A program made the position numbers and the translations under genes. 31,833 bases of DNA from a virus, in IMG/VR virus record IMGVR_UViG_3300005882_000012, positions 1 through 31,833 of that record. One strand, written 5' to 3'. Shown in pieces: positions 11,629 through 31,833 of this stretch. Within the stretch, counting starts at the first letter, position 1. Every line of letters starts with the position of its first letter. A model generated the notes under the pieces. The model saw only the letters and a list, made by a program, of their open reading frames with translations, had not been told where the DNA came from and ran no database searches.

Positions 11629-12633
11629 ATGAGACCCGAATCTGGAACCCCCGTTTACCGGCCGGACCTGGGCATTTACATGATTGAAACCGGCCAGATT
11701 CCCCAGGGTGGATTTATCGGCCTGGAAGTGCTGCCACCCTATACCACCCCGGACGATGCCGGCACCTTCAAGGTGATTCCCCTGGAGGAATACCGAAAAT
11801 TGGTGTCAGACAGCCGCAGCCCCCTGGGTGCTTACAACCGGACTGACTGGAAATATCAGCGAGCCCGGTTTTCCACCCGGGACAAGGGCATTGAAGAGCC
11901 CATCGATGACGATGAATTTGACCGCCTGGAACGGCAAAGCCCTGGTATGGCTGATCAGGTCACCATTGATTCAGCCAGGGGTATCATTCAGATGAACCAG
12001 GAAAAGCGCATTGCCGACAAGGTCATGGACCCCACCCGGTTTACCGCCAAGGGCGTTTCAACCCCTTGGGATAATGTTTCCACCGGAAAGCCCATCACAG
12101 ATGTCAAGGACGGCATGTCTGACTTCCGGAAAAAAATGGGTGTGCTGCCCGACACTCTGGTCCTTTCCTGGAATTCAGCAAACAACGTCAATAAGACCGA
12201 AGAGGTCCGAAACACCTTGCAGTACACGTTTCCCGGCCTGGACATCAACAACCTGACCGCGGTTCAATTGGCCCGGATGTTCGGCATTGCCCGGGTGTTG
12301 ATAGGAAACGCCTTGTTTGACGCGGCAGACAAGAATCGGCCCAGGGAGTTGACCGACTTCTGGCCTGACACCCATGCTGCCCTGGTCAAGACAAACCGGG
12401 GCCCGGATCTGCGTCAGCCCTGTGTGGGCCGGACTTTTATCTGGACTGCTGATTCCCGCACCGAGCCCATTGTGGAAGTCTACCGGGAAGAGCAGATCCG
12501 CTCCGACGTTTACCGGGTAAGGCACCATGTGGATGAGCGCCTGCTGGTAACAGAAGACGAAGACGGCAACACCCTGACCGATATTGCCGCGTCCTGCGTG
12601 TATCTGTTTTCCGGAATCAAAACGGAGGATTAA
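11629..12633 (+). CDS. Major capsid protein
   Basis: The protein has 334 residues, close to lambda gpE (341). It reads RARFSTRDKGIEEPIDDDEF, then an internal helix region (MNQEKRIADKVMDP), then PDTLVLSWNSANNVNK and DPRI-like mid-domain strands, ending in IAASCVYLFSGI. These fit capsid proteins of the gpE/HK97-fold type, and the order decoration-capsid-gpFII agrees. A strong AAGGAGG precedes the ATG. It is followed by an inverted-repeat element at 12641-12740. Confidence 0.82.
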   Translation: MRPESGTPVYRPDLGIYMIETGQIPQGGFIGLEVLPPYTTPDDAGTFKVIPLEEYRKLVSDSRSPLGAYNRTDWKYQRARFSTRDKGIEEPIDDDEFDRLERQSPGMADQVTIDSARGIIQMNQEKRIADKVMDPTRFTAKGVSTPWDNVSTGKPITDVKDGMSDFRKKMGVLPDTLVLSWNSANNVNKTEEVRNTLQYTFPGLDINNLTAVQLARMFGIARVLIGNALFDAADKNRPRELTDFWPDTHAALVKTNRGPDLRQPCVGRTFIWTADSRTEPIVEVYREEQIRSDVYRVRHHVDERLLVTEDEDGNTLTDIAASCVYLFSGIKTED

Positions 12634-12640
12634 GGCAGAT

Positions 12641-12743
12641 GTGAGTTGTCAGTGATGAGTAGTGAGTCAAACCTGTCTCAACTGACAACTCATTACTCAT
12701 TACTGGTTTCTCACAACTCACTACTCACTACTGACAACTGGGG
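12641..12743 (+). repeat. Heptamer-based inverted-repeat element, copy 1
   Basis: The left arm 12644-12667 (AGTTGTCAGTGATGAGTAGT and on) pairs with the right arm 12716-12739 (ACTCACTACTCACTACTGAC and on) at 22 of 24 positions. The arms are built of 7-base units such as ACTCACT, ACTGACA and ACTCATT. The right end, ACAACTGGGGT, lies just upstream of the GTG start at 12750 and supplies its only ribosome-binding-like GGGG. It fills the gap after the major capsid gene. Confidence 0.85.
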
Positions 12744-12749
12744 TACACC

Positions 12750-13109
12750 GTGACCGATTTTGAAGAACTGATTTTTGCCGATACTGCTGCCATGCTTGCA
12801 GCCGAAGAGTTTGCCGAAGACATTGTCTATCGCAGGCCGTCGGCTGGGGGCGTGGAACGGACTATCAGGGGTATTACCGAAATCGGGGATCTGTCCCGGA
12901 TGAAGGATATACGCACGGAAAACCTGCCCCAGCGTCGCACCGGCCGCCTGTATGTGGCAGACACGGCCTTGGCCGATTTCGGGGGCGCGGCTGAATACCG
13001 CGATGAGGTGGATATCAACGGGCAGACCTGGACGGTGCTTTCCACCATATCCGAGGAATACGGTCTGATAGAGTTGCTGATCGAGCGCGACGTCCGGCCG
13101 GCATTTTAA
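12750..13109 (+). CDS. Head-tail joining protein, gpFII-like
   Basis: The protein has 119 residues; lambda gpFII has 117. It is mostly beta strand (RRTGRLYVADTALADFGG, then YRDEVDINGQTWTVLSTISE) and ends in an LIERDV strand, as is usual for connector proteins of this class. Position directly after the major capsid gene supports gpFII, which sits on gpW and gives the tail its docking surface. The start is GTG 12750 with the GGGGT of the upstream repeat element as ribosome-binding site. Confidence 0.65.
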   Translation: MTDFEELIFADTAAMLAAEEFAEDIVYRRPSAGGVERTIRGITEIGDLSRMKDIRTENLPQRRTGRLYVADTALADFGGAAEYRDEVDINGQTWTVLSTISEEYGLIELLIERDVRPAF

Positions 13110-13118
13110 GGGGTGTTT

Positions 13119-13463
13119 ATGGATCCTGTTTCAGTGCAGACATTTCAGTTTTCCGGACTGGAAACCCTGCTGATTTCTTTGCTGGTGGCCGTGATTGCCT
13201 GCGTGACTCTTTTCTGGCGGATGTCATCGAGATTTGTGACTCATGATGAATGCAAGCGCAACCACGATGGGGCAAACAGCGATGACGAGCAAATCCGGCA
13301 ATTGCTCGAAAAGATGGAAAAAAAGATGGATGACCGTGACGCGCGCATGAACACCAAGCACGAGCTTTTGTTCCGCATGATGCGGGCAGTCATTTTATAC
13401 ATGGATCTGCCAGCGGAAAAGAAAACCGAGATCCTGAACATGAGGCCGAATCGTGAAACCTGA
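13119..13463 (+). CDS. Small membrane protein with coiled-coil tail, unknown role
   Basis: The protein has 114 residues from ATG 13119 (AAGGGG upstream; GTG 13113 is an alternative). A single hydrophobic helix at about 15-34 (LETLLISLLVAVIACVTLFW) is followed by a charged region with heptad character (EQIRQLLEKMEKKMDDRDAR). A membrane protein inside the head-tail connector cluster is unexpected. It could be an early lysis/spanin-like or superinfection protein, or an anchored assembly factor. I recognise no family. It overlaps the next gene by 11 bases. Confidence 0.65.
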   Translation: MDPVSVQTFQFSGLETLLISLLVAVIACVTLFWRMSSRFVTHDECKRNHDGANSDDEQIRQLLEKMEKKMDDRDARMNTKHELLFRMMRAVILYMDLPAEKKTEILNMRPNRET

Positions 13464-14103
13464 AATATTAGTTGATCCCCGCGGTGAAGTGCTCATCGAG
13501 AATATCGAGGAGATTGTGGGCCGGTATCCCAAATGGGCAAAGCGGGCCATCAACTCCGCGCTGGCCTCAGAGGGTTATGTTCTTAGGCACATGCTCCAGG
13601 ACGCAATAAAAAGAGGTGGGCCGCCTGGCGCATCATGGGAAAAGCTTAATCCCTACACAGCCCTTATGGAATCTCAATCCAGGAGACAAGAGCGCAGGAA
13701 GTCCTATGTACCCAAACTCAATCCGTCAGAGCTAACCGGGGATTATCGGGTGCCCCTACTGAAATTTAGAGGTGGTATCAGGTATGCGGTAAACAAGGAT
13801 GAAACAGCCATGGGCGTGGGGTTTATAAACCCGATTCCAGATGGCAAGGGGTGGGGGCCTCCTGGAACATCATTTCTGAATATGCTGAAGATGCATGCAA
13901 AGGGGTACACTAAGCGCGTGACCCGACGGATGCAGATCAAGTTTTTTACCCTTGGTCTGCCATTGACGGCCCGGACTCTCAGGGTGCCTGCCCGCCCACT
14001 GATTGAGCCGGTTTGGGATCAGGAAAAAGAGAATGTGATTTTTTCCATTGAACGAAAATTTTTTCTAAACATGGATCGGTATGCCAGAGGGGGCAAGAAG
14101 TGA
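13453..14103 (+). CDS. Minor tail / tail completion protein, gpZ-like
   Basis: This basic protein has 216 residues (lambda gpZ 192). An N-terminal helical part (YPKWAKRAINSALASEGYVL) is followed by GGIRYAVNKDETAMGVGF and TARTLRVPARPLIEPVWDQE. The last motif (R-x-P-x-R-P) is typical of phage virion-morphogenesis and HK97 gp10/gpZ-type proteins, which complete the tail-to-head joint. The GTG start has GAGG upstream and overlaps the preceding gene; the stop overlaps the next start. Confidence 0.65.
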   Translation: MKPEILVDPRGEVLIENIEEIVGRYPKWAKRAINSALASEGYVLRHMLQDAIKRGGPPGASWEKLNPYTALMESQSRRQERRKSYVPKLNPSELTGDYRVPLLKFRGGIRYAVNKDETAMGVGFINPIPDGKGWGPPGTSFLNMLKMHAKGYTKRVTRRMQIKFFTLGLPLTARTLRVPARPLIEPVWDQEKENVIFSIERKFFLNMDRYARGGKK

Positions 14104-14549
14104 ACACCCTAAGCCTGATCGCAAAATTAAAAGAAGTTTTTACCACAGATACAACCTTCCTGGCCTGGTGCACGGAGAATATCGGGGGGCGTCCAACATT
14201 GTATGTCGGGATGGATGACGCCAACCCGCCTGGCCGGGAAGATTATCCAATTGTGGGTATCACGGAAATCACATCAGAAGGTGAATCCGTGCGCGGGCAG
14301 GCTGATTTTACCCTTGAAGCTGGTTTCGGCATTGAGTCTGAGGTCATCACTGATGAATCAGCAATTAAATGCCGGACCTATACCGGTTTTACTTTGGCAG
14401 AATCTTTCCGGGTGGCCGGGCTTGCAGCTTTAAAGCGTGCAGCCCTGGGCAATATGACCGTGGAAGGCACCGGCCAGGTTAATTATCACCCGCTGTACGT
14501 CAGCGGCATGCGAATCAAAATATCAACTATCAACACAGGGAGAAACTAA
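14100..14549 (+). CDS. Tail terminator protein, gpU-like
   Basis: The protein has 149 residues (lambda gpU 131). It starts LSLIAKLKEVFTTDTTFLAW, contains PTLYVGMDDANPPGREDYP and EITSEGESVRGQADFTLEAG, and ends in a strand-rich region. The alpha/beta layout and the position between gpZ-like and tail-tube genes fit gpU, which caps the growing tail tube at the end that joins the head. The GTG start overlaps the previous gene by four bases. Confidence 0.6.
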   Translation: MNTLSLIAKLKEVFTTDTTFLAWCTENIGGRPTLYVGMDDANPPGREDYPIVGITEITSEGESVRGQADFTLEAGFGIESEVITDESAIKCRTYTGFTLAESFRVAGLAALKRAALGNMTVEGTGQVNYHPLYVSGMRIKISTINTGRN

Positions 14550-14550
14550 A

Positions 14551-15492
14551 ATGGGTGATGCACAAAGCTTTCTTGGTGCCGGGGATCTTTACATGGACCG
14601 GCTCGATGAAGACGGAACCAAAAACGGACTGGTGAAAGTGGGCGCGGCCCTGCTTTCCCTCCAGTCAAACGCGGAAATCAGGCAGGCCACATCAAAGGGC
14701 CGCGACGCTTACGGCCAGGTCATAGCATCTGCCACCATCGGTCAGCCCCCGGTGGTAAATGCGTCCATCACCCAGCTGGACCGGGTGGCCCTGGCAATGA
14801 ACTTTCTTGGAAACCTGGAAGATGTGGATGTATCTGCCGGATCTGTTGCAGCCGAAGAAATTACCGTGCAGAACCTGGACAGGTATTTTAGGCTTGCCAA
14901 GCGCAATATTGACGCCACAAGTGTTGTTGTGACCAGATCCGCCGGATCAGGCGCTACCGCATGGAGTTCTGAGGCCACAGTGGAAGAAGGTGCTTATTAT
15001 GTACCTCCATCCGGATCTGAAAACGATCATTTTTACAAGGTCACGACTGGCGGTACTGTCGGCACCACAGAACCCATATGGCCCACAGACGGCAGCACTG
15101 TTGAAGACGGCACAGCGGTTTTCCAGGACATGGGGCTGATTGAGGCGGCCGCAACCGATTTTGAAGTGATTGCCAGAACCGGCATGATCCGGGCTCTTTC
15201 CACCGGCAACATAGAGGCAGGCGAAACCCTGTCCATTGCCTATGATTATCTGGATGTCACCGGGGCAAAGGTCTTAGGCGCGGTACAGCCGACTATCAAG
15301 GCATATCTGTTCCTGGACGGCGTTAACAAAGTTGATGGCAAGGACGTTGAAGTTGAAGTTTGGGAAGCCCAGCTTCGGCCTACTTCGCCCGTTGACTTCC
15401 TGGCCGATGACTTTACCAGCCTCGAAATGGAAGGCACGCCAGTCACGCCGGCTGATAAGAGCAGCCCCTTTGTGATCACGTATATTGATTAA
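14551..15492 (+). CDS. Major tail tube protein, gpV-like, with inserted beta domain
   Basis: The protein has 313 residues; lambda gpV has 246. The two ends read as one tube domain: GAGDLYMDRLDEDGTKNGLV at 9-28 and AYLFLDGVNKVDGKDVEVEV at 251-270, then VWEAQLRPTSPVDFLADDFT. Residues about 145-196 look like an insertion of a small beta module with GAYYVPP, HFYKVTTGGTVGTTEPIWPT and EDGTAVFQDMG, a pattern that recurs in phage surface proteins and could be displayed on the tube exterior. Two bases separate it from the gpU-like gene; an inverted-repeat element follows it. Confidence 0.78.
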   Translation: MGDAQSFLGAGDLYMDRLDEDGTKNGLVKVGAALLSLQSNAEIRQATSKGRDAYGQVIASATIGQPPVVNASITQLDRVALAMNFLGNLEDVDVSAGSVAAEEITVQNLDRYFRLAKRNIDATSVVVTRSAGSGATAWSSEATVEEGAYYVPPSGSENDHFYKVTTGGTVGTTEPIWPTDGSTVEDGTAVFQDMGLIEAAATDFEVIARTGMIRALSTGNIEAGETLSIAYDYLDVTGAKVLGAVQPTIKAYLFLDGVNKVDGKDVEVEVWEAQLRPTSPVDFLADDFTSLEMEGTPVTPADKSSPFVITYID

Positions 15493-15498
15493 GCAGCA

Positions 15499-15592
15499 AG
15501 TGAGTTGTCAGTAGTGAGTTGCGAGTTGAAAGACGGCTCCGACTCACAACTGACAACTCATAACTCACTACTCACTACTCACTACTGGAGTC
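15499..15592 (+). repeat. Heptamer-based inverted-repeat element, copy 2
   Basis: The left arm at 15500-15528 (GTGAGTTGTCAGTAGTGAGT and on) is answered by a right side made of consecutive 7-base units: ACTGACA, ACTCATA, and three ACTCACT. CAACTCATAACTCACTACT matches the left-arm complement at 17 of 19 positions. The right end, CTACTGGAGT, supplies the ribosome-binding site of the GTG start at 15597. It shares GGCTCCGACTCAC with copy 3. Confidence 0.85.
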
Positions 15593-15596
15593 CAAA

Positions 15597-16019
15597 GTGG
15601 CAAGATTAGAAAAAACTATCACAATCAAAGGCCGGGGTCCGGTCACAGTCTACGAGCTTTCGGCAAAACAGATCCGTCAGATTGTTGATAAGCTCGAATC
15701 CATGGACGAAAAACAGATCCAGGAGCTTTTGGCCTGGTGCTCAACTGCCAGCTTGGATGAGATTCAGGAAATGTATCCATCTGAGATTCGGCAATTATAT
15801 GATGCCTGGGCGGAGGTGAACACTGATTTTTTGCACCTGATACGGACGGCAATGAAGCAGCCGGCCGTAAAGAATTTTCTGGAAAGCTTACTCGACGAAG
15901 GCTTGAAGAAAGCGTCTGCGACCTTATCGAGTATGGGCATGTCAATGCCTGGGAATACGGATATAGCTTTTTACTGGCCTGTCTCCGAAGATCAGGCAGA
16001 AGGGATGCCCGGCGATTAA
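15597..16019 (+). CDS. Tail assembly chaperone, zero-frame product (gpG analogue)
   Basis: This 140-residue helical protein starts with a strand pair (LEKTITIKGRGPVTVYELSA) followed by helices (KQIRQIVDKLESMDEKQIQE, then YDAWAEVNTDFLHLIRTAMK). Length equals lambda gpG, and it lies in the classic position between tail tube and tape measure. Such chaperones coat the tape measure before the tube polymerises. GTG 15597 has GGAGT six bases upstream. A second product is expected through a -1 shift (see 15827-16108). Confidence 0.75.
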   Translation: MARLEKTITIKGRGPVTVYELSAKQIRQIVDKLESMDEKQIQELLAWCSTASLDEIQEMYPSEIRQLYDAWAEVNTDFLHLIRTAMKQPAVKNFLESLLDEGLKKASATLSSMGMSMPGNTDIAFYWPVSEDQAEGMPGD

Positions 16020-16108
16020 TTGACACGGCCAGGGCCATGCGTGCGGCATTTACGGCGGACAGTAACGGCTGGAGAAGTTTTATTAACACTTTGGAAAAAC
16101 AGTTGTGA
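15827..16108 (+). CDS. -1 frame extension of the tail assembly chaperone (gpT analogue)
   Basis: The -1 frame is open from a TGA at 15824-15826 to a TGA at 16106-16108. It encodes ESVCDLIEYGHVNAWEYGYS, then FLLACLRRSGRRDARRLIDT, and ends in SFINTLEKQL, with the character of tail-chaperone T domains. It has no ribosome-binding site of its own. A perfect T TTT TTG heptamer in zero-frame phase lies at 15827-15833, giving a 170-residue fusion (79 plus 91 codons). The shift point could also be further downstream, because zero-frame residues 78-107 look genuine too, but no perfect heptamer was found there. Confidence 0.65.
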   Translation, partial: FFAPDTDGNEAAGRKEFSGKLTRRRLEESVCDLIEYGHVNAWEYGYSFLLACLRRSGRRDARRLIDTARAMRAAFTADSNGWRSFINTLEKQL

Positions 16109-16112
16109 AAAA

Positions 16113-16206
16113 ACAGTAGTGAGTTGTCAGTGGTCAGTAGTGAGCAAAACCGGCTCCGACTCACTGATTTAAACTCACTACTCACAACTCATAACTGAAA
16201 ACTGGG
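16113..16206 (+). repeat. Heptamer-based inverted-repeat element, copy 3
   Basis: The left side (CAGTAGTGAGTTGTCAGTGG at 16114-16133 and on) and the right side (ACTCACTACTCACAACTCAT at 16173-16192 and on) form imperfect inverted arms of the same 7-base units. The element begins five bases after the -1 frame stop of the tail chaperone. Its right end, AAAACTGGGGT, is the ribosome-binding site of the tape measure gene at 16213. Confidence 0.85.
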
Positions 16207-16212
16207 GTTCAC

Positions 16213-19200
16213 ATGGCGGCAAATAACAAATTCCAGATTATCATTGAGGCGGTCTCCCAGGGCTTTAAAGAGGTCCGGGCGGACATGAAAAACGCCCTTG
16301 GCAAAGGCAGTCAGGAAGCCACCGAAGAGATCAACCGCCTGAATCAGCGGCTCAAGGCCTTGGAGGCTGAAGCTGCGGCCACGCAGAACACCCTGGGCAA
16401 AATCCAGTCCTTCCGCAAGCTCAAAAACGAGTCCGCCGAGCTGTCTGCTGAATGGAAGACCACCGAGGCCCGCCTGGCAGAACTGGCCCGCCAGATCCGC
16501 ACAGCCGAAGGCGGCACAAAAACCCTGGAGCGGGAGTTTGAAAAGACCCGCAAACAGGCTGCAAAACTTAAAGAAGAATATCGTCAGAACGAGGCCGCCC
16601 TGCAATCTATGCGCAATGAGCTGGGAGAATCTGGCGTCCGTGTCAATGCTTTGTCAGCAGCACAGGTGCGGCTTAAAAAAGATCTCAATGCCACCCAGGC
16701 GGAAATCAAGCAGACCGGCACAGCGTTTAAATCAGCACAGAAACCTACCACTGGTTTTTTTACCAAAGCCCGCCAAGGTGCAGGCGCGTTTTCCCAGGAG
16801 CTTCAGAAAAACCGAAAAGCCGCCTCCGGGTGGTCAACAGCTTTAAAGGGCGCTTTTGCGGCAATCGGTATCCGGGAAGTTACGCGGGGGTTGTGGGATG
16901 CTGCCAGGCAAGGCCAGAGCCTCAATATCGCCTTTAAATCAATTTCCGGGTCCAGCGCTGCTGCAGCAGACGAACTGGAGTTTATTCGCGGTGTCACAGA
17001 TGAGCTCAAGCTTGAATTTTATTCTACAGCCGAATCTTATAAGGGAATTTTTGCAGCTGCTAAAAATACAACCCTGGAAGGTGAAGGCGTCCGCAAAATT
17101 TTTACTTCCGTGTCTGAAGCGGCAGCAGCTCTGCAGATGTCGGCCGATAATACCAGCGGCACACTGCGTGCTTTAACGCAGGTAATGAGTAAAGGCAAGG
17201 TCCAGGCTGAAGAATTGCGCGGCCAGATGGGTGAACGTCTTTATGGCGCTTTTACCATGGCTGCTGAAGGTATGGGCATTACCACAGAGCAGTTAGACCA
17301 AATGCTTGAGCGCGGTGAAGTGGTTGCAGATGAGTTCTTGCCCAGGTTTGCCAACATTCTATCCGAGCGTTATGGCAAAGCTGCCCGGGAAGCTGCAAGC
17401 GATACGGAAAACATGCAGGCGTCCATGAATGATTTTAAGACGACCTGGAAAGACCTGACTATTGAAATCGCCAAGTCCGGGTTTATCAAAACAGCAACAG
17501 ACACATTGCGGCGGCTGACTGCAACCCTAAAAGACCCTGAAACCAAGCAATCAATCACCGAGCTTACCTCCCTGATTTTTAAAATGATTGCCGCCGTGGT
17601 TGATATTACTGCCAAGTACGGCAAGTGGATATTGATTTTAGGCGGCGGTGGCATGGCTGTTAAAAAGCTGACAAACCTGATGCTAGCCCTAAATGCCGCA
17701 ATGCTCAAGGTTACTGGCGTGGGTATTATAACGTGGTTTAAAAAGTACATTGCCCAGGTCGACATAGCTATTATTAAAAACGGGGTCTTGGATAAAAGTT
17801 TTACAACGCTAAAAGGCACCATCGGCCTTGCAGCAGGGGCTCTTGGATCATTTTTCGCCGGCTGGCAGATCGGCAAGATGATCGGTGAAATTGATATTGT
17901 GGAGCGTGCCGTCCAGGGCATGTATGCCACTATTGATACATGGATCACCAAGGCAAGAATAAAATACCTGGAATTAAAAAAGGCATGGGAAAGCCTGTGG
18001 GGTGATGAGCAGGCAGTCAATGATATTAATAAGCGCATTGATCAGTTAAATCGGCATTTAGATGTTATTGATTTAACAAAAGATAAAATTAAAGAAATCG
18101 GCAAAGTCACAAAAGAAACAGCTGCTGACGCCAAACAAGCCGCCGAAGAAGAAGTGGCAGCCGAAGAAGACAAGCAAGCCGCCATCAAAAAAACCGAAGA
18201 GATCAAAAAACAATCCCATGATGAGAATTTAAAGCGCATCAATTCCGAGCTTGCAGCCCTGGAAGTGGCTTTGGATGAGCAGCAGGCAGACATTGAACTG
18301 GCCCTTGCTAAACGTGAAATATCTGAAAAGGAAGCATCAAAGCGGCGCATCCAGATTGAGATGGACGCTCAAAAGCAAAAGATCCAGGTATTAAAAGATG
18401 CCCTGGCCAAGGCTGATGAACTATTCAAGGATGACACGGAAGCTGCGGAAAAATATAAAAAGGAGCTTAACGAAAAGCTGCGTCAGGCTGAAATTGACCT
18501 TACCCGCATCATGGCAGCAGAACATAACCGGCGCAATCAAATAGCCGATGAAGCTGCACAGGCCCAGGCAGATGCTGCAAAAAAAGCAGCAGATAAGGAA
18601 GTTGAAGCTGCCAAAGGCGCAAGTGAGCAGAAAAAAGAGATTCGGCAAAACGATTTATTAACCCTGATTGAAGATCACGAGCGCCAGCTTGAATATATTG
18701 ATGCCCTGGAGCAGGAAGGCATCATCAAGCATCATGAGGCCCTGCAGCGCAAAATTCAGGCGGATCTCGAATTTGCCCGGGCCAAGGTTGAGCACACAAA
18801 AGAAGCTGTTGATAAAGCGGTTGAGCAGTACGGCCGGGAATCTGACGAATATAAAAAAGCCATTCAGGAAATGAAAGACGCCATGGGTGAACTGGCCGAA
18901 GCTGAAGACGAAGCTGAAGAGCGCCAGAAAGAAGCCCAGGAGTCTTACCAAAGCTGGGTTGCCTGGAAGATAAAAAAGATCAAGGAGCAGGCCCTTGGCT
19001 ATGATGAGCTGAACGCCAAGCTAAAAGAGCAGCAAAACCGCCTGGCCGACATACCGCGATCCACACCGTACGTTGTGTTGCTAAATCAGGTCAATCGTGT
19101 TGTGCAGGCCATGGAAGATTACGTCGAGCAGTTTGACCGGGTCCATGAGCGTGCAGAACGCGTGCTCGGGGTTCAGATTGATATTTCCAACACCTCCTTT

Positions 19201-21189: not shown

Positions 21190-21196
21190 CCAGCAC

Positions 21197-21218
21197 GGGC
21201 GGACACACAGGTCCGCCC
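21197..21218 (+). repeat. REP-like GC hairpin
   Basis: GGGCGGAC and GTCCGCCC form a perfect 8-base-pair stem around ACACAG, followed by CCTACAG and no T-tract. The pattern resembles short dispersed palindromes found in many bacterial genomes. It lies between the tape measure stop and the next gene. Confidence 0.6.
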
Positions 21219-21254
21219 CTACAGAATAATTGCAACACTGAAGGGCAGGCAGAT

Positions 21255-22883
21255 ATGGCCGATATAACAGAATCCGATGTAAAGCTCTACAAATCAGAAG
21301 ACCAGACCGACACTGACACCGGCGGTGGGCGGATTTCCTCCAACGTTGTCGAGTCCGGCGTCATTAACAATTTATATGCCAACATTTCCCGCGTTGACCG
21401 GCTTCAGGGGCGCATCCAACCTAAAAAGGTGTTCCAGAAAATAGACTCTATCAATACCGGCGTTTATTCCGGTGCGCATCTGATTGTAAAGGACATGCCG
21501 CTGGATGAAAACGTGTCTGTGATCATGTTTGACACCGATGATCATAATGACAAACTGCCAGATATTGTTGACTATATGGAGAGCTATTACCAGGCATCAA
21601 CCCCGGTGGGCAATGCAGGTCTTGAATACGCGGTATCAGCAGGTGACCGGCAGCTGGTGTTTAAGATCCGGCACTACGAGTACACCCCGGAATACGACCG
21701 GGACGGCAAGCTGGTCTATCTTAAAAAAATTGATGCCAAGTACGCTTTTAACGCCACAGTCGGCGATCTGCTTTTGCTCGATGACGGGGAAGACACCACT
21801 GAGCATATCCACATTCAGGAGATGGAGCGCGTCACAGAGCACTTAGACGGTGCAGACGAAAAGCATTATTACACTGTTGAATATATTGTTGTTACGCTGT
21901 CTGCCGGGCTGCTAAACGCCTGGGCCAAGGATACTATACCCTACCGCACGAAAAGAAACGCGGCCTGGAAGGCATACGGCGCAATGATGCTGGCAGAAGA
22001 CGCAGCAGCAGAAGACACAGACATCGGCCTTGTGTCAACCAAGTCCCGGATCGCTCCGGTGATTTCCCGCAATATTGCCGTGTCTGACCAGGCTTTTTTC
22101 GGGCCTCCGACCATTGCAGACGATGTGGCCGCCGGTGCTGATGGCATTGAATGGACCCTGGACCAGGCTGAAGAAATCAACACGTCTGAATCCATAATAG
22201 CTATTGCCGGAAAAACATCTTATACGCACGTACTGGAAAACAAGCCGCTTAAGGCCTCAACCCTTGAGATCTGGTATCGCTCAAACCTTGGCTGGTTTGT
22301 GATCACAGAAACAGACGGCGTGCTTTCGGGTGACGGATCAGGCTCAGTGTCTGATGACGGGGTGCTGACATTTACGTTAAGTGATGCAGCAGATCCGGAT
22401 ACCCATATCATGCTGTTTTACACTCGTTCGCACAACCTAAATGAGGTTGTAAATATTCCGCTCACATCCCCTGATGTCACCTATGAGCAGACGCAGGTTG
22501 CTGTTGCATCTGAAACAGAAACAATTTCCGGCACCATAGAAGACGCCCCGGTTGAACCAGGTTTTGTACGTCTTTTTATAGATGAGGGTGCCGGGTGGGA
22601 GGAGTTCGGCACAGATGGCGGAGCGGGGGTAATTACTGGCGACAATATCAATGCCTGTGAATTTGATTATATTACCGGCCAGTGGGAGTTGACATTCCAG
22701 AGCTTCTACACTGCCGGGATAGTTTTGAAATGGGAGTATGTGCCTCGATCTACATCTTTCGCGAGCGAAAACGGGTCTTTACCAGTCGGCGTGTCTGCCG
22801 GAAGTGCGTCTTTTAATTTAAGCAGCCGGCCCATAGCTCCAGGGTCTGTGAGGGTCACAATAGCTGGGTATTATCGATATTAA
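21255..22883 (+). CDS. Tail-tip structural protein, upstream half of a probable split gene
   Basis: This 542-residue beta-rich protein has no recognised enzyme motif. The N-terminal half (residues 1-270) contains a mixed region with VDRLQGRIQPKKVFQKIDSI. The C-terminal half carries repeated modules of about 70-90 residues with the shape P..P..VR...D.G.G...GD...Y.TG...L.F.......I...Y: one near residues 335-395, one near 430-500, and a third that begins at SRPIAPGSVRVTIAG and stops at residue 542. The third module seems to be completed in the next gene, which is in the same frame after one TAA codon. It is probably a distal tail or baseplate component. Confidence 0.65.
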   Translation: MADITESDVKLYKSEDQTDTDTGGGRISSNVVESGVINNLYANISRVDRLQGRIQPKKVFQKIDSINTGVYSGAHLIVKDMPLDENVSVIMFDTDDHNDKLPDIVDYMESYYQASTPVGNAGLEYAVSAGDRQLVFKIRHYEYTPEYDRDGKLVYLKKIDAKYAFNATVGDLLLLDDGEDTTEHIHIQEMERVTEHLDGADEKHYYTVEYIVVTLSAGLLNAWAKDTIPYRTKRNAAWKAYGAMMLAEDAAAEDTDIGLVSTKSRIAPVISRNIAVSDQAFFGPPTIADDVAAGADGIEWTLDQAEEINTSESIIAIAGKTSYTHVLENKPLKASTLEIWYRSNLGWFVITETDGVLSGDGSGSVSDDGVLTFTLSDAADPDTHIMLFYTRSHNLNEVVNIPLTSPDVTYEQTQVAVASETETISGTIEDAPVEPGFVRLFIDEGAGWEEFGTDGGAGVITGDNINACEFDYITGQWELTFQSFYTAGIVLKWEYVPRSTSFASENGSLPVGVSAGSASFNLSSRPIAPGSVRVTIAGYYRY

Positions 22884-22898
22884 TGGAGGGCAATGATC

Positions 22899-25502
22899 AT
22901 GGCAGGCGCTGTATATAATCCATTCGGCGGCTCTGTACGATATGAGCTTGTGTTAGAAGATGATGGCAATGGCAACCTTGTGTTAGATAACGGGGACGGA
23001 ACTGCAGTAGGCACAATAAATTACAGCACAGGCAAGGTGGAGTTAAACTACAATTTTGCAAACAATATTAATTCAGCTGTTTCATGGTTTGCTTCTTACC
23101 AGCAAATCGTAAGCGGCATCTTCCAGCAGCTTGCCCTGCCATACCGCTTTTCCATCGGCCGCACCGATGCTTTGCCAGGCTCGCTGCTGATCAAATACTA
23201 CACCGAAGGGGTGGACGCGGCGTGGTATGCCAGGGATAAAGGCCGGGGTGAATTGGAGCTGATTGCAAGTTTGGGCGGATGGCAGTCTGGGTCACCGTTT
23301 ACTCCGTCAGTAACCAATTTTGGTTGTGTGTATGGCAACGGTCGATGGCTTGCACTGATAGGAGAAGAAGATCCTCCAGGTTTTATAGGCGGGCAGGTTT
23401 GGACCTCCATTACCGGGCAGGAATGGGCGGTTTTGGTCGAAAGCACAGGATCTCGCGAATACTGGTGGAATGTGGCTTTCAAGGAAAGTGGGCCGGTTTG
23501 GGTGGCATGTGGGGATCAATACGAAAATTCCGGTATAGATGGGGATCAGGTTGGCAGGTCGACGGACGGGGTCAACTGGACATCGCAAAACATAGGAGGT
23601 CATTCAGGGCCCGTTTTCCGGGACATTTGTTATTCGCCCGATTTAGATCTGTTTATGATGGTTTCCAACGGTGGTGTTTATATCTCCGATAATGACGGCG
23701 TCAGTTGGAGTTCCCAGGTTAATGCAATCGGCAATTTGCAGTTCGGATTGGCTGCCACGTTAGACCTAACTCATATGCTGTTTGCTTTTGGCACAACAGG
23801 CCGATACCAATATTCCCTAAACGGCACCGACTGGACCGAAGGCAATAGCCAGCTAAACAATCCAGCTGTATGCGGTGCAGTGATCGCAGAAGATGGCATC
23901 AATACACTGATCGTAATGGATAGCGCTGGCAATGTGTCCAAAAGCGTGGATGGAATTGAATTTGTCCTTTTGGACGCATCTCTGAACGGATCCCCGGTCA
24001 ATATAGCCACGGACGGGTCGGCTCTTCTGGTTGTGGCATTAGATGATGGGTCTGTGGATGTGTCCGATAATTACGGACAGAGCTGGAGCAACGTGGTTTT
24101 AGGCCACCAATGGAGTAATGTGGTGCGGCATAAGGTCTTTTTTGCCGAAGAAACGGGCTGGCTCCATCTCAGTTTTGGCAATTCAGGGGATGCCGATGCG
24201 ATAAAGCCTTCTGCCGCACCTTTCGAAGTTATGACAGATGAAACAGGCACCGCCATTAAAACAGTCGGAGCATTTGACCCGGCCACCGGCATCGGCGAAA
24301 TTACCGCCGGAGACCTGCCGGTTTCGGCCTCGGCACGGTATTTTCTAACGCCCCGGAGGCTTTCGGATTTTGTGGTGTTCACCTGGGGCGCGGTGCCGGT
24401 TCATGACAATTCATTCACCGTCTTTGGCCGCACGCACACCGGGGCCATGGTTATGCTCTCAGAAGATTCGGAAAACCCCGGCACGCTCACAGGCGACGGC
24501 ACGGGCACGGTTAACAAAGAAACAGGTGTGGCAGAACTGACCTTTTCCCATGACGTGCGGCCTGAAACTATACGTATCAGCTATTCTTACGGCTCCATCT
24601 ACAAACCCGAATACGACGAAATCAACACCAGGGCACTGCCCTTAGATGGCCTGGTGCCTGTTGTGCAGGTCGGTGATGTGGCAGTGATTGTGGAGCATGC
24701 CCGGGCAAAGCTGATATCTGCCATAACAGATGCTGAAATGGCCATTGATATTGACGACGGAGCAGTATTTCCGGACCGGGCCATTACGGTAAAAATCGAA
24801 GACGAAGAAATTACCGGCACCATGAGCGGTGACACATTTTCTGTGACCGCACGCGGGGCAAACGGCACCACAGCAGCAGAGCATGACGCAAATACGGTCA
24901 TGAAGCTGACTTCCCGGCGCGAGGAAATGATTAACATCCTGCAGGTGGCAGGCAACCGGATCACAACTCCAAATCCCCTGGCCTATGATTATAAGGCAGG
25001 CGGTGCCATCCTGACATCTGCAATCGTTAAAGGTGATCTGTACGCCAGGGAATCAGGACATCATACGCAGGACGGCGAAGTGCCAGGATCATTGTGGATT
25101 GATTCTGACGATTTCGATGGCACCCCGGCTGACGGCACATACAATTTTGCAGACCACCCCTTGGAGCTTACCAACCAGGGAACCACCACCGAACGCTGGA
25201 AGCTGACCGTAACCGGCACAAGCCCTGTGACTGTAAACGTTGAGGGTGAATACTTAGGCATCATTGCAACAGATCAGGCCATAACATCTGATATAGCACC
25301 TGCAAACCCCCAAACCGGGGGGCAGTATTTCATTTTGCCGTCCGAAGGCTGGGGCGCTGGTTGGCAGGTGGGAAACATCCTGCGATTTGATACGGTCATG
25401 GCCGGAGGCCCTGCCTGGATCACCCGGGTTATAAATGCCAGGGCATCAGACATTCAGGATGATTACGCAACAATTCAGAGCAGGGGGGACGTGGCAGTAT
25501 AA
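22899..25502 (+). CDS. Tail-tip adhesin with beta-propeller (Asp-box) domain
   Basis: The protein has 867 residues from ATG 22899 (TGGAGGG eight bases upstream; ATG 22893 is too close). Residues about 1-65 look like the completion of the preceding gene's last module (DDGNGNLVLDNGDGTAVGTI, then NYSTGKVELN). Residues about 125-430 form a BNR/Asp-box propeller with STDGVNWT (221), SDNDGVSW (263), SLNGTDWT (306) and SDNYGQSW (389). Another beta module lies at about 500-565. Asp-box propellers in phage tails are often receptor- or glycan-binding. Sialidase catalytic residues were not recognised. It overlaps the next gene by one base (TAATG). Confidence 0.7.
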   Translation: MAGAVYNPFGGSVRYELVLEDDGNGNLVLDNGDGTAVGTINYSTGKVELNYNFANNINSAVSWFASYQQIVSGIFQQLALPYRFSIGRTDALPGSLLIKYYTEGVDAAWYARDKGRGELELIASLGGWQSGSPFTPSVTNFGCVYGNGRWLALIGEEDPPGFIGGQVWTSITGQEWAVLVESTGSREYWWNVAFKESGPVWVACGDQYENSGIDGDQVGRSTDGVNWTSQNIGGHSGPVFRDICYSPDLDLFMMVSNGGVYISDNDGVSWSSQVNAIGNLQFGLAATLDLTHMLFAFGTTGRYQYSLNGTDWTEGNSQLNNPAVCGAVIAEDGINTLIVMDSAGNVSKSVDGIEFVLLDASLNGSPVNIATDGSALLVVALDDGSVDVSDNYGQSWSNVVLGHQWSNVVRHKVFFAEETGWLHLSFGNSGDADAIKPSAAPFEVMTDETGTAIKTVGAFDPATGIGEITAGDLPVSASARYFLTPRRLSDFVVFTWGAVPVHDNSFTVFGRTHTGAMVMLSEDSENPGTLTGDGTGTVNKETGVAELTFSHDVRPETIRISYSYGSIYKPEYDEINTRALPLDGLVPVVQVGDVAVIVEHARAKLISAITDAEMAIDIDDGAVFPDRAITVKIEDEEITGTMSGDTFSVTARGANGTTAAEHDANTVMKLTSRREEMINILQVAGNRITTPNPLAYDYKAGGAILTSAIVKGDLYARESGHHTQDGEVPGSLWIDSDDFDGTPADGTYNFADHPLELTNQGTTTERWKLTVTGTSPVTVNVEGEYLGIIATDQAITSDIAPANPQTGGQYFILPSEGWGAGWQVGNILRFDTVMAGGPAWITRVINARASDIQDDYATIQSRGDVAV

Positions 25503-27439
25503 TGGCAGACCTTTCCGGATACAGATACCGATTTCCCATTTCGTTTGACCACACCAAGGTGGACACGGATCTGCCGTGGTTTCCCGTGCCGGTGGTGCTG
25601 GGCGCAGCGGTCGGCCTGGCCGAGAAGGATGTGACCGCCATTTTCGACGAAGTCGGGAGTGATTATCTCAAGATCGCCATCACCATGGCCGACGGCACAA
25701 CCCAGTTATATGCGGAGGTCGAGCAATGGGACGCGGCCACGGAAAAAGCCCTGGTCTGGGTGTCCAAGTCCGACTGGTCGCTGTTGAGTGTATCCGATCA
25801 GCAGGGGTATTTTTATTTTGATGCCACGGCCAGCGATAACACAGCTTATGTGGGCACGCCGGGCAACCGGCCGGAGGTGTGGAATAGCGATTTTGTTGCT
25901 GTTTATACAATGGCGCAAGATCCGAGCGGGGGCACGGATTGTATCATAGACTCAACGGGCAATGGAAACCATGGGACACCAGCCGGGTCAATGACTTCCG
26001 GGGATTTGGTTGACGGCCAGATTGGCAAAGCCATAGATTTTGATGGGTGGGATGATCGTAATTATGTTTCAGACGACAATTCCTTAGATGTAACTTCCGA
26101 GCTTTTCATTGCTGCGACATTAACGCCTGAGTCTGTAACAGGGCATCAAACGGTTGTATGTAAGGATTCAGACGACACTGATCTTGCTTTATTTTATCTT
26201 AAACTGTCAGATGCCGACAACTCCGACAAGTCTGGCTTTGTGTTGCGAGATCCATCATCCGATTCTGCTACAAGAATTTTTGGGGATAATTTATCTGTTG
26301 GCACGAGGTATCGGCTCGCGGCCCTTTATGATGGATCTTATCTAAGATTTTATATTGATGGGGTAGAGAAGGGATCTGCCAGCAGATCAGGAGACATCCC
26401 CACCTCTGTTGCTGATTTACAAGTCGGGTGTGGCTACTGGCTGCACGGGCTGGTCGATTATGCGGAGACTGCGATTGAGAACATACAGTTTGCATCTGCT
26501 GCTCCCTCTGCCGCCTGGATCAAAGCCGACTACCACGCCCAGACCGATAACCTGATCACCTGGGGCGACCTCGAAGACCTTGGCGCCAGCGGCGAAACAC
26601 CCACCGATCCCTACGAAGGCATGGCCGGCGCGCTTTGCACAGCAGCTGACACCGCAGCCATGGATCACCTGCACGGCACGGCCTATTCCCTGGCCGCCAC
26701 AGTCTACCTGGCCCTGTCCACGGCAGATCCGCTAAACGACGGCACCGGCCTGACAGAACCATCCGGCAACTATGCCCGCCAGGCCATATCTTTTAGCGCA
26801 GCGGCATCCCGGCAGATTGCAAATGCAGCAGATATTACTTTCCCCCTGGCCGAAGCCGCCTGGGGCGATGTCACCCACTGGGCGGTCTGCGATGCGCAAA
26901 CCGCCGGCAATGTGCTGGCCAGAGGGCAATTTGACGGGACAAAAACCGTTTCCGCCGGCATTGCACCGAAAATCTATGCCGGCGACATCTGGATCGCCAT
27001 TTCTGCCAGCGGATCAAACGGCCATGGCCTCACCGATTATGCGGCCAATGCCCTGCTTGATCTCATATTCCGGAACCAGAGCTTTGCCATTGCCGGGCTT
27101 GCCGTGGCTTTACTGGCCGCCGAAACAGACGACACAGCCGAAGACATAGCCACTGATTGCACGGAAACCACCGGCACCGGATATACACAAATAACAGTAA
27201 ACGAAGCCGGGGGCGCGTCTCCAGCATTTAACGCAGCATCAGACGGAGCTGTAACCAATGCCGACTTAATCGACTGGGGCACGCCAGGGCATGATGACTG
27301 GTCCACTGTTGCCGCCCTGGCCCTGGTCACGGATGCCGGCAAGGTCCTGGCATATGACAACAATATCACCGATTTTACGCCGGGTACTGCCGACACCGTG
27401 GCCATCCCGGCCGGCAGCTATCAGATGGCGCTGCATTGA
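25502..27439 (+). CDS. Tail fibre-like protein with DUF2341- and LamG-type domains
   Basis: The protein has 645 residues. The N-terminus (YRYRFPISFDHTKVDTDLPW, then KALVWVSKSDWSLLS and YFDATASDNTAYVG) matches DUF2341-type beta domains. Residues about 128-345 form a LamG/concanavalin-like sandwich (DSTGNGNHGTPAGSM, GKAIDFDGWDDRNYV, RLAALYDGSYLRFYIDGVEK). Two tail-fibre modules follow, about 395-500 (LALSTADPLNDGTGLTEPSG, WGDVTHWAVCDA) and about 520-645 with the same order of strands. Such proteins bind surface carbohydrates and likely set host range. The start overlaps the previous stop. Confidence 0.72.
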   Translation: MADLSGYRYRFPISFDHTKVDTDLPWFPVPVVLGAAVGLAEKDVTAIFDEVGSDYLKIAITMADGTTQLYAEVEQWDAATEKALVWVSKSDWSLLSVSDQQGYFYFDATASDNTAYVGTPGNRPEVWNSDFVAVYTMAQDPSGGTDCIIDSTGNGNHGTPAGSMTSGDLVDGQIGKAIDFDGWDDRNYVSDDNSLDVTSELFIAATLTPESVTGHQTVVCKDSDDTDLALFYLKLSDADNSDKSGFVLRDPSSDSATRIFGDNLSVGTRYRLAALYDGSYLRFYIDGVEKGSASRSGDIPTSVADLQVGCGYWLHGLVDYAETAIENIQFASAAPSAAWIKADYHAQTDNLITWGDLEDLGASGETPTDPYEGMAGALCTAADTAAMDHLHGTAYSLAATVYLALSTADPLNDGTGLTEPSGNYARQAISFSAAASRQIANAADITFPLAEAAWGDVTHWAVCDAQTAGNVLARGQFDGTKTVSAGIAPKIYAGDIWIAISASGSNGHGLTDYAANALLDLIFRNQSFAIAGLAVALLAAETDDTAEDIATDCTETTGTGYTQITVNEAGGASPAFNAASDGAVTNADLIDWGTPGHDDWSTVAALALVTDAGKVLAYDNNITDFTPGTADTVAIPAGSYQMALH

Positions 27440-27452
27440 GCGCAGGCGATGA

Positions 27453-29174
27453 ATGACCGATTACAGCCTGATCATATCCATATCCGCATTGACAGACAGC
27501 AGCGCGCCGGTGCTGGGGCGAGGGTTTGCCCTGCCTCCGATGATATCGGCACTGAGCGCGTCAGCGACAGACACGGAGATGTGGGCCGATGCATCCCCGG
27601 CAGTGGCGCTGCCATGGGAAAAATACCCCGGCGAAATCGATATCTCTCTGGAAACCCCATGGTCCACGGCATCGGCTCTGGACCGGGGAAACAACCTGAT
27701 CTGGGCGCTGCCATGGGGCCAGGTGGGGCATGTGGATGTTTCCACGGGCCTGCCCTGGGGCGTGACCGACCCGGCCGATGTGGACAATGCACTGCCATGG
27801 GGCGGGACCCTTCACACGGACGCAGATATTCAGATCCCGTGGCTGCAAGCCATCCCGACAGATCCGGACATTGTGCTGCCTTGGGTAAAGACCATCGACA
27901 CGGATGCGGACATAACGCTGCCCTGGGCCAAAACCGGCACAGTGGATGTTTCAACGGTGCTGCCATGGTGGATGATGCTGGCAGTAGATGTGGAGACCCG
28001 GCTGGCATGGGGCAAGACCCTGACCGTGGACGTTGGCGTCAAGTGCCCATGGTCAAAAACAATCGCCCTGGATGTGAGCAATTTTACAGGGTTTACCGAG
28101 GGCGAAGGCGAATACGTAAAACAGGCGCTGTTTAAAGACTTTAAACTGCCGTGGATCGCGGCCGCAAGGATTATCATGTATGAGCAGAACATCACATTTA
28201 CCAGGGTGTCAGATAGTGCAAACATCCGGCTGTTGTCAGCATCGGTAGACATTGACGTGGATTCATGGTGCTGGCAGATGCGCGTCACACTGCCGTCTAA
28301 AACCGATGCTGATTTGGTACGGCCGGACCCGGGAACAGGCGAAATGACCGAAGTGGAGCTGTCCATCAACGGTTACACGTGGCGGTTTCTGGTCACAGAG
28401 CTTTCGGAAAACTACGCCTGGGCAAAGGGCACATACAACATAACCGGCTATTCTCCGACTTACCTGCTCGGAGATCCTGGCCCGCGCATCACGCAGGCAT
28501 GGTCCGCACAGTCAGCAGAGGCTGTTGTGGCAGGGCTTTTGTCAGGTTCCGGCTACACATACACATGGAACCTGCTGGGAAACACCTGGAACCTGCCTGC
28601 CGGGTGCCTGTCTGTAGCCGATGCAACATGGATTGATGTTGTCAAAAAGGTTGCTGCTGCTGTAGGCGGGGTGGTCCAGACAAATCCAGCCGGATATGAT
28701 CTGATCTTGCAGTCCCGGTATCCCGCAAGCCCGAAAGACTGGGCAGCTACAACACCGGATGCAACATTGATGGCCGGAATCATGAGCCAGGGCATAGCGC
28801 CAAAGCAGCAGCCCGGATACAATCAGGTTATCGTGTCCGGCCAGCATTACGGAGTTATTGCAACTGTCAGGCGCGAAGGCACGGCAGGCGACAACCCGGC
28901 ACCGAATGTCACAGACCCCCTGCTTACCAACGTGGCAGTATGTACAGAGCGCGGACGGGTAGAGCTTGATGAAACCGGATATAACAAAGCTGATGAAACC
29001 CTGCTGCTGCCATTGCCCGGCCCCGGAAATACTCCAGCCTTACTGCTGCCCGGTGATCTGGTTTTAGTCCAGGATCTGTCAGCATCATGGCGCGGCCAGG
29101 TTAAAAGCGTATCTGTGGCAACCGAGCGGGCAAAAACGAGGCAGCAGGTAACTTTAGAGAGGGTCTATATATGA
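27453..29174 (+). CDS. Baseplate hub-like tail protein with nine 14-residue repeats
   Basis: The protein has 573 residues. Residues 86-211 are nine uninterrupted 14-residue repeats of the form LPW-x-K-T-x-x-x-D-[AV]-D-[IV]-x, with PW (once AW) at 87, 101, 115, 129, 143, 157, 171, 185 and 199; two looser PW units precede them. The C-terminal 350 residues (VELSINGYTWRFLVTELSEN, VVKKVAAAVGGVVQTNPAGY, LLPGDLVLVQDLSASWRGQV) resemble hub proteins of the gpD/gp27 type that join the tube to the tip, a similarity of pattern only. A 228-codon ORF that begins at 27449 in another frame is a shadow. The stop overlaps the next start (ATGA). Confidence 0.7.
   Translation: MTDYSLIISISALTDSSAPVLGRGFALPPMISALSASATDTEMWADASPAVALPWEKYPGEIDISLETPWSTASALDRGNNLIWALPWGQVGHVDVSTGLPWGVTDPADVDNALPWGGTLHTDADIQIPWLQAIPTDPDIVLPWVKTIDTDADITLPWAKTGTVDVSTVLPWWMMLAVDVETRLAWGKTLTVDVGVKCPWSKTIALDVSNFTGFTEGEGEYVKQALFKDFKLPWIAAARIIMYEQNITFTRVSDSANIRLLSASVDIDVDSWCWQMRVTLPSKTDADLVRPDPGTGEMTEVELSINGYTWRFLVTELSENYAWAKGTYNITGYSPTYLLGDPGPRITQAWSAQSAEAVVAGLLSGSGYTYTWNLLGNTWNLPAGCLSVADATWIDVVKKVAAAVGGVVQTNPAGYDLILQSRYPASPKDWAATTPDATLMAGIMSQGIAPKQQPGYNQVIVSGQHYGVIATVRREGTAGDNPAPNVTDPLLTNVAVCTERGRVELDETGYNKADETLLLPLPGPGNTPALLLPGDLVLVQDLSASWRGQVKSVSVATERAKTRQQVTLERVYI
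27708..28085 (+). repeat. Nine tandem 42-base repeats inside the hub-like gene
   Basis: Each unit encodes 14 residues beginning (L/I/C)PW or LAW. The DNA keeps CTGCC(A/C)TGG at most unit starts, but the units have diverged elsewhere, so the array is old or under functional selection. No unit is frameshifted. Confidence 0.85.
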
Positions 29175-29254
29175 ACGTCTGGAAACAATTTGAGCGCCTT
29201 CAAAAACCGTCCGGTCAGGATTTGAGGGTGGCCGAAGTTATAGCGGTCTATGAC
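29138..29254 (+). repeat. 117-base inverted duplication, tail-gene copy
   Basis: This segment spans the end of the hub-like gene, the ribosome-binding site and the first 28 codons of the next gene. It is repeated in inverted orientation at 31158-31274 with 113 of 117 bases identical. All four differences are third-position changes that keep the amino acid (Leu, Lys, Pro, Gly codons). Confidence 0.92.
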
Positions 29255-29401
29255 ACGGAATCATTGGTTGAAGACGCAGGCGGCCAGCAGTATCGAGCCC
29301 TGGGAACAGATCATTCAGCAGGACAGATGGTGTTTATCCGCGATGGTGCAATTATCGGCCAGGCACCGAGTCTGACAAACGCTGGCATAGTCTATGTTTA
29401 A
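29171..29401 (+). CDS. Small tail-region protein of unknown function
   Basis: The protein has 76 residues, starting MNVWKQFERLQKPSGQDLRV and ending in a glycine-rich strand region (MVFIRDGAIIGQAPSLTNAG). No family is recognised. It overlaps the hub-like gene by four bases, and GAGAGGGTC precedes the ATG. Its first 28 codons lie in a 117-base segment that is copied in inverted orientation at 31158-31274, where they continue into a different C-terminus. A tail-tip accessory or chaperone role is likely by position only. Confidence 0.6.
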   Translation: MNVWKQFERLQKPSGQDLRVAEVIAVYDTESLVEDAGGQQYRALGTDHSAGQMVFIRDGAIIGQAPSLTNAGIVYV

Positions 29402-29436
29402 ACTCTCAACTCATAACTCACTACTAACAACTGGTG
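29402..29436 (+). repeat. Heptamer-based repeat element, copy 4 (short)
   Basis: ACTCTCA, ACTCATA, ACTCACT, ACTAACA and ACTGGTG follow each other as 7-base units. Only the right-hand arm is present. As in the other copies, the end ACAACTGGTGT sits just before a start codon (ATG 29443). Confidence 0.8.
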
Positions 29437-29442
29437 TAAAAG

Positions 29443-31115: not shown

Positions 31116-31833
31116 TTAACGTAATGCCATAGCACTACACGCCTTGAGATCGTCCAAGTCATAGACCGCTATAACTTCGGCCACCCTCAAATCCTGGCCG
31201 GATGGCTTTTGCAGGCGCTCAAATTGTTTCCAGACGTTCATATATAGACCCTCTCTAAAGTTACCTGCTGCCTCATCGGACGGATCTTTAGGGTTGCCGC
31301 ACTTCGGGCATCTGTGAGGTGATGTTTCGGTGCCCTTGTAAGCGGGTTTGTCCGGGTGTTTTTTTGACAACTCCTTAAATCCGCTTTTAGGTTGTTTTAC
31401 AGGTTGTTGTGTTGGTGGGGGTGGGATGGTTCCGGTTTCGTGAAAGTCGTGTAGAGTTTGCCTTATAAGCTTTGCTTTTGGCGGCGGATAATCATAAGAC
31501 CACCTTTTTTCATCAACATTGTATCCAAATTCCCTGTAAGCGCCTTTTGATGATCCGCGGTTCCGGTCTCTTGTAATAACGTTATACCAGTTGTTGCTGC
31601 TTGGGCCGATGAAAGCAGCGGGTTGGCCGTCCAGGCTAATTTCAATGTAAGGGGCATATATTGGGATGCCGGCTCCCCTGGCTTCTGCGGACATGAGGAT
31701 TTCTTCTATGTGCTCTGGCATATCAGAAGTTGCACCCGACTGGCAAAGGGCATGGGCCAGGTGCTTGCAAAGCCTGCGTAGGTCTGTGGCTGGATAATCC
31801 TTTCTGCGTTTGTGGAAATCCGGGCAGGAGCAG
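31116..31833 (-). CDS. SWIM zinc-finger protein, 5' partial, with phage-derived C-terminus
   Basis: The frame is open from the window edge, so the start is outside. The visible N-terminal part has CSCPDFHKR and, after 13 residues, LCKHLAHAL, the C-x-C ... C-x-H pattern of SWIM fingers. A middle domain (IYAPYIEISLDGQPAAFIGP, then RSYDYPP-like WSYDYPPPKAKLIRQTL) and a Pro/Gln-rich linker follow, then half a zinc ribbon (RCPKCGNP) without a second Cys pair. From there on the ORF is the 117-base inverted copy of the tail region (MNVWKQFERLQKPSGQDLRV) and 13 unrelated codons. The native C-terminus seems to have been replaced. SWIM proteins bind DNA or protein partners. It may be a phage early gene or host. 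Confidence 0.6.
   Translation of the reverse strand, partial: CSCPDFHKRRKDYPATDLRRLCKHLAHALCQSGATSDMPEHIEEILMSAEARGAGIPIYAPYIEISLDGQPAAFIGPSSNNWYNVITRDRNRGSSKGAYREFGYNVDEKRWSYDYPPPKAKLIRQTLHDFHETGTIPPPPTQQPVKQPKSGFKELSKKHPDKPAYKGTETSPHRCPKCGNPKDPSDEAAGNFREGLYMNVWKQFERLQKPSGQDLRVAEVIAVYDLDDLKACSAMALR
31158..31274 (-). repeat. 117-base inverted duplication, copy inside the SWIM ORF
   Basis: The segment is the reverse-orientation partner of 29138-29254 (113/117 identical). It keeps the ribosome-binding site, ATG and first 28 codons of the tail-region gene, then diverges to LDDLKACSAMALR and a stop. The two copies flank 1903 bases holding the rest of that gene, one tail gene and the lysis genes. 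Confidence 0.92.

Follow-up and report, generated by a model that had tools for sequence, protein, structure and literature searches.

Palindromic heptamer repeats in the stop-to-start gaps of a phage late operon: a putative family of small dispersed elements

What are the arrays of 7-nt units that separate late genes at four junctions of a phage genome, and do they serve the genes on either side? The DNA in which they lie, called the window throughout, is the whole stretch of 31,833 nt of the IMG/VR record IMGVR_UViG_3300005882_000012. Family searches identified terminase, portal, head protease, capsid, major tail, chaperone-like, tape measure and other tail genes and assigned the gpFII-like attachment gene to PF05354, in agreement with the gene names given in the original prediction. 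A second record, IMGVR_UViG_3300005067_000027, was identical to the window over the stretches compared. No close DNA relative was found among named phages, and the relatives of the window used in this analysis are the loci L008, L009 and L012 to L016. The four heptamer elements that had been predicted from the letters alone are real, and their coordinates, common units and orientation all agreed with our analysis. These elements, their right ends and a second hairpin repeat are as follows.

12634 to 12749, plus strand: copy 1, full hairpin element (MFE -43.3, z -4.3), lying between the stop of the capsid gene (12631-12633) and the start of the gpFII-like gene (12750), with its left arm at 12641-12667 and its right arm at 12681-12736
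12737 to 12744, plus strand: right end of copy 1, ACTGGGGT, likely a weak ribosome-binding site (duplex energy -6.1 kcal/mol)
15493 to 15596, plus strand: copy 2, full hairpin element (MFE -43.7, z -5.7), lying between the stop of the major tail gene and the start of the chaperone-like gene (15597), with its left arm at 15499-15528 and its right arm at 15542-15583
15584 to 15591, plus strand: right end of copy 2, ACTGGAGT, likely a weak ribosome-binding site (duplex energy -5.9 kcal/mol)
16109 to 16212, plus strand: copy 3, full hairpin element (MFE -32.4, z -4.0), lying between the stop (16106-16108) that closes the -1-frame chaperone extension and the start of the tape measure gene (16213)
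16201 to 16208, plus strand: right end of copy 3, ACTGGGGT, likely a weak ribosome-binding site (duplex energy -6.1 kcal/mol)
21190 to 21254: second, unrelated hairpin repeat, with GTAGGGGCGGACCTGTGTGTCCGCCC on the minus strand from 21222, in the gap after the tape measure gene
29402 to 29442, plus strand: copy 4, right arm alone (z -1.2), in the gap from a stop (29399-29401) to a start (29443)
29430 to 29437, plus strand: right end of copy 4, ACTGGTGT, likely a weak ribosome-binding site (duplex energy -5.4 kcal/mol)

The elements consist of ACTCACT, ACTCATA, ACTGACA and variants of these units, set in inverted arrays around a core, and 7 is their standout repeat period. Over the whole window, segments of lag-7 self-similarity scoring at least 9 were confined to the four elements (best score 25.5), while the top score in 60 windows simulated under a Markov-1 model was 11.0. 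The control lags 5, 8, 10, 11 and 13 gave zero segments, and lags 6 and 9 gave one each (9.5 and 12.0, respectively). The z values compare folding energy with that of dinucleotide shuffles, and by this measure copies 1 to 3 fold far better than shuffled sequence and form strong hairpins. In copy 1, the two 24-nt arms show 92% complementarity, which bears out the 22 of 24 pairs reported earlier. Copy 4 has no left arm, and its hairpin was not significant.

The claim that these elements fill the only sizeable gaps of the operon was too strong, since the late operon also has gaps of 70, 56, 65 and 74 nt, and the 65-nt gap at 21190-21254 is occupied by the different hairpin repeat listed above. 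In addition, part of the 193-nt gap that precedes copy 3 is coding sequence: the chaperone-like ORF has a -1-frame extension (15827-16108) that is open until its stop at 16106-16108, and copy 3 starts right at this stop. The same extension is one residue longer in L012 and ends at a different stop. Judging from the reading frames, it would be as expected for a programmed frameshift upstream of the tape measure gene. Searches with Rfam covariance models gave zero matches at all four elements up to E 5, and no known RNA family was identified. It has been reported that stable stem-loops in bacteria are concentrated in the first 50 bp downstream of stop codons, with a possible influence on mRNA stability (PMC1590033). 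The window copies are unlike such stem-loops and intrinsic terminators in that they have no T run, their stems leading into ACTCA units or ACTGGNGT, and in that unrelated repeats provide the hairpin at the same junction of relatives. In L008, a T run is present after the capsid gene hairpin.

Homologous copies of the elements occupy stop-to-start gaps in the relative L012 and in L198 and L199, which are phages by gene content. The elements of L198 were 74-84% identical to those of the window over 75-113 nt, and when 20 window proteins served as queries, none matched a protein of L198 or L199. The four elements appear to belong to one family of small (~100 bp) palindromic dispersed repeats that fill the stop-to-start gaps of phage late operons. 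The family element is short and palindromic, has inverted terminal repeats and occurs in many copies, three of them full in the window and about nine in L012, L198 and L199 together. In these last three it starts at the stop codon of the preceding gene and, in most copies, extends to the next start. Its left end comprises the stop codon, a short purine-rich stretch with CAG, GTGAGTTGTCAGT or near variants, and more TGAGT units; CCGGCTCCGACTC or ACCNATTTATTT frequently forms the core, and the right arm is built of ACTCA units. No whole element was found in named phages or plasmids, where the partial matches covered 28-46% of the query among the matches listed. Two heptamer elements were present on L139 (contig 174 of G649), a short contig that also encodes a phage-type reverse transcriptase. 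Dispersed heptamer hairpins also occur in a 3.97-Mb genome (G336, loci L142-L147), with the cores AAAACAGCTTATTTT / AAAACAAGCTGTTTT and the ends ATATGAAAG; these have heptamer arms but a different core and different ends, so that they were not counted as members and are probably a separate family of the same architecture.

Two forms of right end were observed. The end ACTGGNGT is found in copies 1-4 of the window and in L012-15821, and in six long-form copies (L012-7300, L012-8144 and four of L198) the right end continues to CTNNYYTA and then a Shine-Dalgarno (SD) sequence; L012-8144 has both right ends, TTTA and then ACTGGAGT. All six long-form copies have the right end CTNNYY-TA and four have a TA on the left, while the window copies are without the TA right end. 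When the flanks of the TA pair were joined, a compact stop-SD-start junction resulted in four of the six, which suggests that long-form elements may have been inserted at a TA within a stop codon. A clean empty site with a single TA was not found.

According to the original prediction, the elements might be spreading and bringing their own SD sequence. In every copy of the window the ACTGG(G/A/T)GT end does precede a start codon, with 5-6 nt from the GGNG core to the start, and it is the sole G-rich site at these genes, but a pairing of -5.4 to -6.1 kcal/mol makes it a weak SD sequence. With the generic anti-SD used for scoring, this pairing is among the weaker ones of the 29 window genes for which it was calculated, and just 32-57% of the right-end region of the copies is unpaired. 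Copy 2 and L012-8144 have ACTGGAGTYYAAAGTG in common, through the GTG start, before different genes, and copy 4 and L012-15821 have ACTGGTGTAA in common before unrelated genes. The idea of spreading elements that bring an SD of their own is largely supported, as they recur in phages without detected protein homology and copy 3 is missing in L012. That they carry their own SD is supported by the recurrence of the ACTGGNGT end and its spacer before unrelated genes, but the six copies of L012 and L198 extend to CTNNYYTA, and in these the gene itself may provide the SD.

In the genome collection, ACTSAYW arrays ending in ACTGGNGT are present in many phyla. An array ending in ACTGGAGT was followed within 12 nt by a start codon and ORF in 15 of 18 cases (background 17%), while none of the five arrays ending in ACTGGCGT was followed by a start codon with an ORF; the difference in following start codons between the ACTGGAGT end and all other ends was significant (Fisher p 0.001). 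However, among arrays of the host class taken regardless of their end, 8/48 preceded starts, which is the background level, and a genome-wide preference of heptamer arrays for start codons was rejected. The original prediction would have been refuted by genome-wide copies lying at random relative to start codons, and the outcome falls half-way: heptamer arrays as a whole show no link with starts, whereas the ACTGGAGT end does.

Lag-7 arrays numbered 10 in 116 kb of phage loci, picked by protein alone, versus 1 in 719 kb of chromosome, sampled from two genomes only. By pattern search, 33 of the 389 genomes of the host class contained arrays, and similar heptamer units occur in many phyla. The lag-7 units of the relatives differ, being GGGCCGA in L008, ACCTGAA and AGAAGGT in L016, and GTTCAAG and ATTGAAC in L015. 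As a candidate host, the genome G353 has a prophage whose capsid protein is 90% identical to that of the window, but it was rejected because it has no ACTCAYW arrays; in the 359 kb sampled there were only two lag-7 arrays, both in the prophage and of another unit. A second candidate, G481, which shares the GTAG repeat described below and has a few arrays, was not established as the host.

The second repeat opens with GTAGGGGC and occupies the same gaps as the heptamer elements. A GTAG next to a short hairpin is found in the repeat at 21190-21254 only and is absent from the heptamer elements; in this respect the second repeat is like the REP-type repeats, which start with GTAG and form short hairpins in gaps, whereas the heptamer element is unlike them in being periodic and without a GTAG hairpin. 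The GTAGGGGCGGACCTGTGTGTCCGCCC repeat was found in the window, L012 and L198, and the bacterial genome G481 contains 11 matches to it (≤3 mismatches). In several cases the GTAG repeat lies within a heptamer element, between its arms (L198 2577-2676 and 3142-3301; L012 2880-3010), an arrangement that suggests nested insertion. G481, which is a host-like genome, also has a few ACTSA arrays, at sites that include junctions within an oligopeptide transporter operon and between ilvN and ilvC. Since both repeats are present in phages and in G481, they belong to a pool that the phages have in common with one or more bacteria of that class.

Comparison of junctions between relatives revealed how these gaps change. 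The sole indel between the near-identical phages L012 and L013 across 13,650 aligned bases is one 7-nt heptamer unit. The window and L012 form a mosaic, in which identity changes abruptly between neighbouring genes, none being detected for the capsid and 97% being reached for the major tail. Where the chaperone and tape measure genes meet, L012 has CAGTTGAAATAACATGG in place of copy 3 and uses a different stop codon, and there is no heptamer element there and no right-end ribosome-binding site like that of copy 3. The original prediction had proposed to check whether relatives lack the elements at these junctions, and L012 is empty at the copy 3 site. Between the major tail and chaperone genes, the heptamer element of the window (copy 2) corresponds to two GTAG repeats in L012, whereas downstream of the tape measure gene the GTAG repeat is in the window and a heptamer arm in L012. 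The proteins flanking the swapped junctions are 73-97% identical between the two. Because the repeat types are swapped at two homologous junctions, whole stop-to-start gaps, including the ribosome-binding region, have been exchanged.

A hairpin was located 3' of the major tail gene in 6/6 phages (window, L009, L012, L014, L015 and L016) and 3' of the capsid gene in four of five close phages, and in both positions the sequences are unrelated. Values of z < -2.5 were obtained for 5/6 major tail gene ends and 4/5 capsid gene ends, compared with 10% of 120 other gene ends on the same contigs; the Mann-Whitney tests against these 120 ends (tail p 5e-6, capsid p 0.002) overstate the difference because the phages are few and related and gap lengths are unmatched. 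In more distant relatives of the capsid and tail genes the hairpin is often absent, so that a universal phage rule was rejected. When arms of one copy were paired with its own or with foreign arms, no compensatory pairing was detected (own mean -35.3, foreign -38.0 kcal/mol). Since own-arm pairing is not above cross-arm pairing, selection on each individual hairpin is not demonstrated. The suggestion of a shared control of tail gene dosage gained indirect support from the hairpin kept behind the major tail and capsid genes despite unrelated sequence, and lost some from own arms pairing no better than foreign ones. We read this as a hairpin that is useful behind high-copy genes in this clade and is provided by whichever repeat is available; gap occupation without function is possible. 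Given that the hairpins at equivalent positions of related phages are unrelated in sequence, they probably contribute to setting the amount of each virion protein. A hairpin that is kept behind capsid and tail genes while its sequence changes wholly would be missed by a search for conserved sequence.

The explanation towards which we lean, with slightly more than an even chance, is that the elements are mobile palindromic transcribed linkers that were co-opted as hairpins behind high-copy virion genes and carry a weak ribosome-binding site in their right end. The element would spread as a non-autonomous mobile repeat or via recombination between gaps, with TA as a possible target site. It would be transcribed together with the operon, and its RNA would fold behind the upstream gene, where the hairpin may protect or attenuate the transcript of high-copy capsid and major tail genes. 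The hairpin would also separate the translation of the next gene, which would start from the weak element-borne site. An unlikely extension is that the elements act as portable intercistronic punctuation, one mobile repeat making any junction an insulated stop-hairpin-start unit (with a TGA in every left-arm unit and 7 not being a multiple of 3, all frames would be stopped within three units), and that phages sharing hosts swap linkers and thereby tune the ratios of their virion proteins.

The evidence can also be read in other ways. Two unrelated repeat types that occupy the same gaps and are at times nested, the lack of compensatory pairing within copies and a junction that is empty in the close relative L012 are what would be seen if the elements were purely selfish or neutral dispersed repeats, which survive only in harmless intergenic gaps and have no role in expression. 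We consider this somewhat unlikely, because hairpins are not spread over gene ends in general but cluster behind the genes for the major tail protein and the capsid, although gap length was unmatched in that comparison. If the intergenic repeats were mainly short homologies for module exchange between phages and were kept for promoting it, the mosaic of the window and L012 (undetected for capsid, 97% for major tail) and the exchange of whole gaps would follow, but no crossover was located within an element and mosaicism was found at element-free junctions too, which leaves this reading quite improbable. There is also a very slight chance that simple-sequence repeats arose independently at each junction by slippage. 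The 7-nt indel between the sister phages L012 and L013 fits that view, as do the similar units in many phyla, for several of which heptamer repeats have been published (PMC4679880); however, unit order, the CCGGCTCCGACTC core and the left end of a stop plus CAG are common to copies in different phages. The common core and ends contradict slippage for the phage family, while for plain arrays (G603, G610) it is still possible.

If the elements are mobile linkers of the kind proposed above, small mobile repeats serve as exchangeable expression parts in phage virion operons, and the intergenic heptamer repeats that are widespread in bacteria, and for the most part lack an explanation, could then be tested in a compact system whose products, capsid and tail subunits, can be counted. 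Literature searches yielded no paper on heptamer hairpin linkers in phage operons. It has been demonstrated that ERIC, RUP and Correia/NEMIS are small mobile palindromic repeats, or bacterial MITEs, and that ERIC insertions within operons change mRNA stability (PMC2229807, PMC3049150). Like the window elements, these repeats are palindromic, intergenic, dispersed and ~100-150 bp long; they are in part transcribed with neighbouring genes and usually have TA at their ends (PMC2229807, PMC3049150). The window elements differ from them in consisting of a variable number of 7-nt units, in occupying the entire stop-to-start gap, in having a likely ribosome-binding site as their right end and in being dense in phage late operons. 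The pneumococcal BOX is a further published analogue. Heptamer repeats of the TAACTGA type have been described in Beggiatoaceae, Cyanobacteria and Bacteroidetes (MacGregor 2015, PMC4679880); these are also tandem 7-nt units that are mostly intergenic, and in one genome they lie close before starts. However, they are direct repeats, mostly without an SD and with almost no inverted arms (PMC4679880), whereas the window elements are not direct TAACTGA repeats and have other units, inverted arms, a core and an SD-like final unit.

A further repeat was noted near the end of the window. A 122-nt inverted repeat of 95% identity is present at 29138-29259 and 31153-31274; its first copy covers the end of the tail gene at 27453-29174 together with the ribosome-binding site and start of the next gene, and its second copy lies inside a minus-strand ORF (31721-31116). 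This repeat is possibly an invertible tail segment or a duplication.
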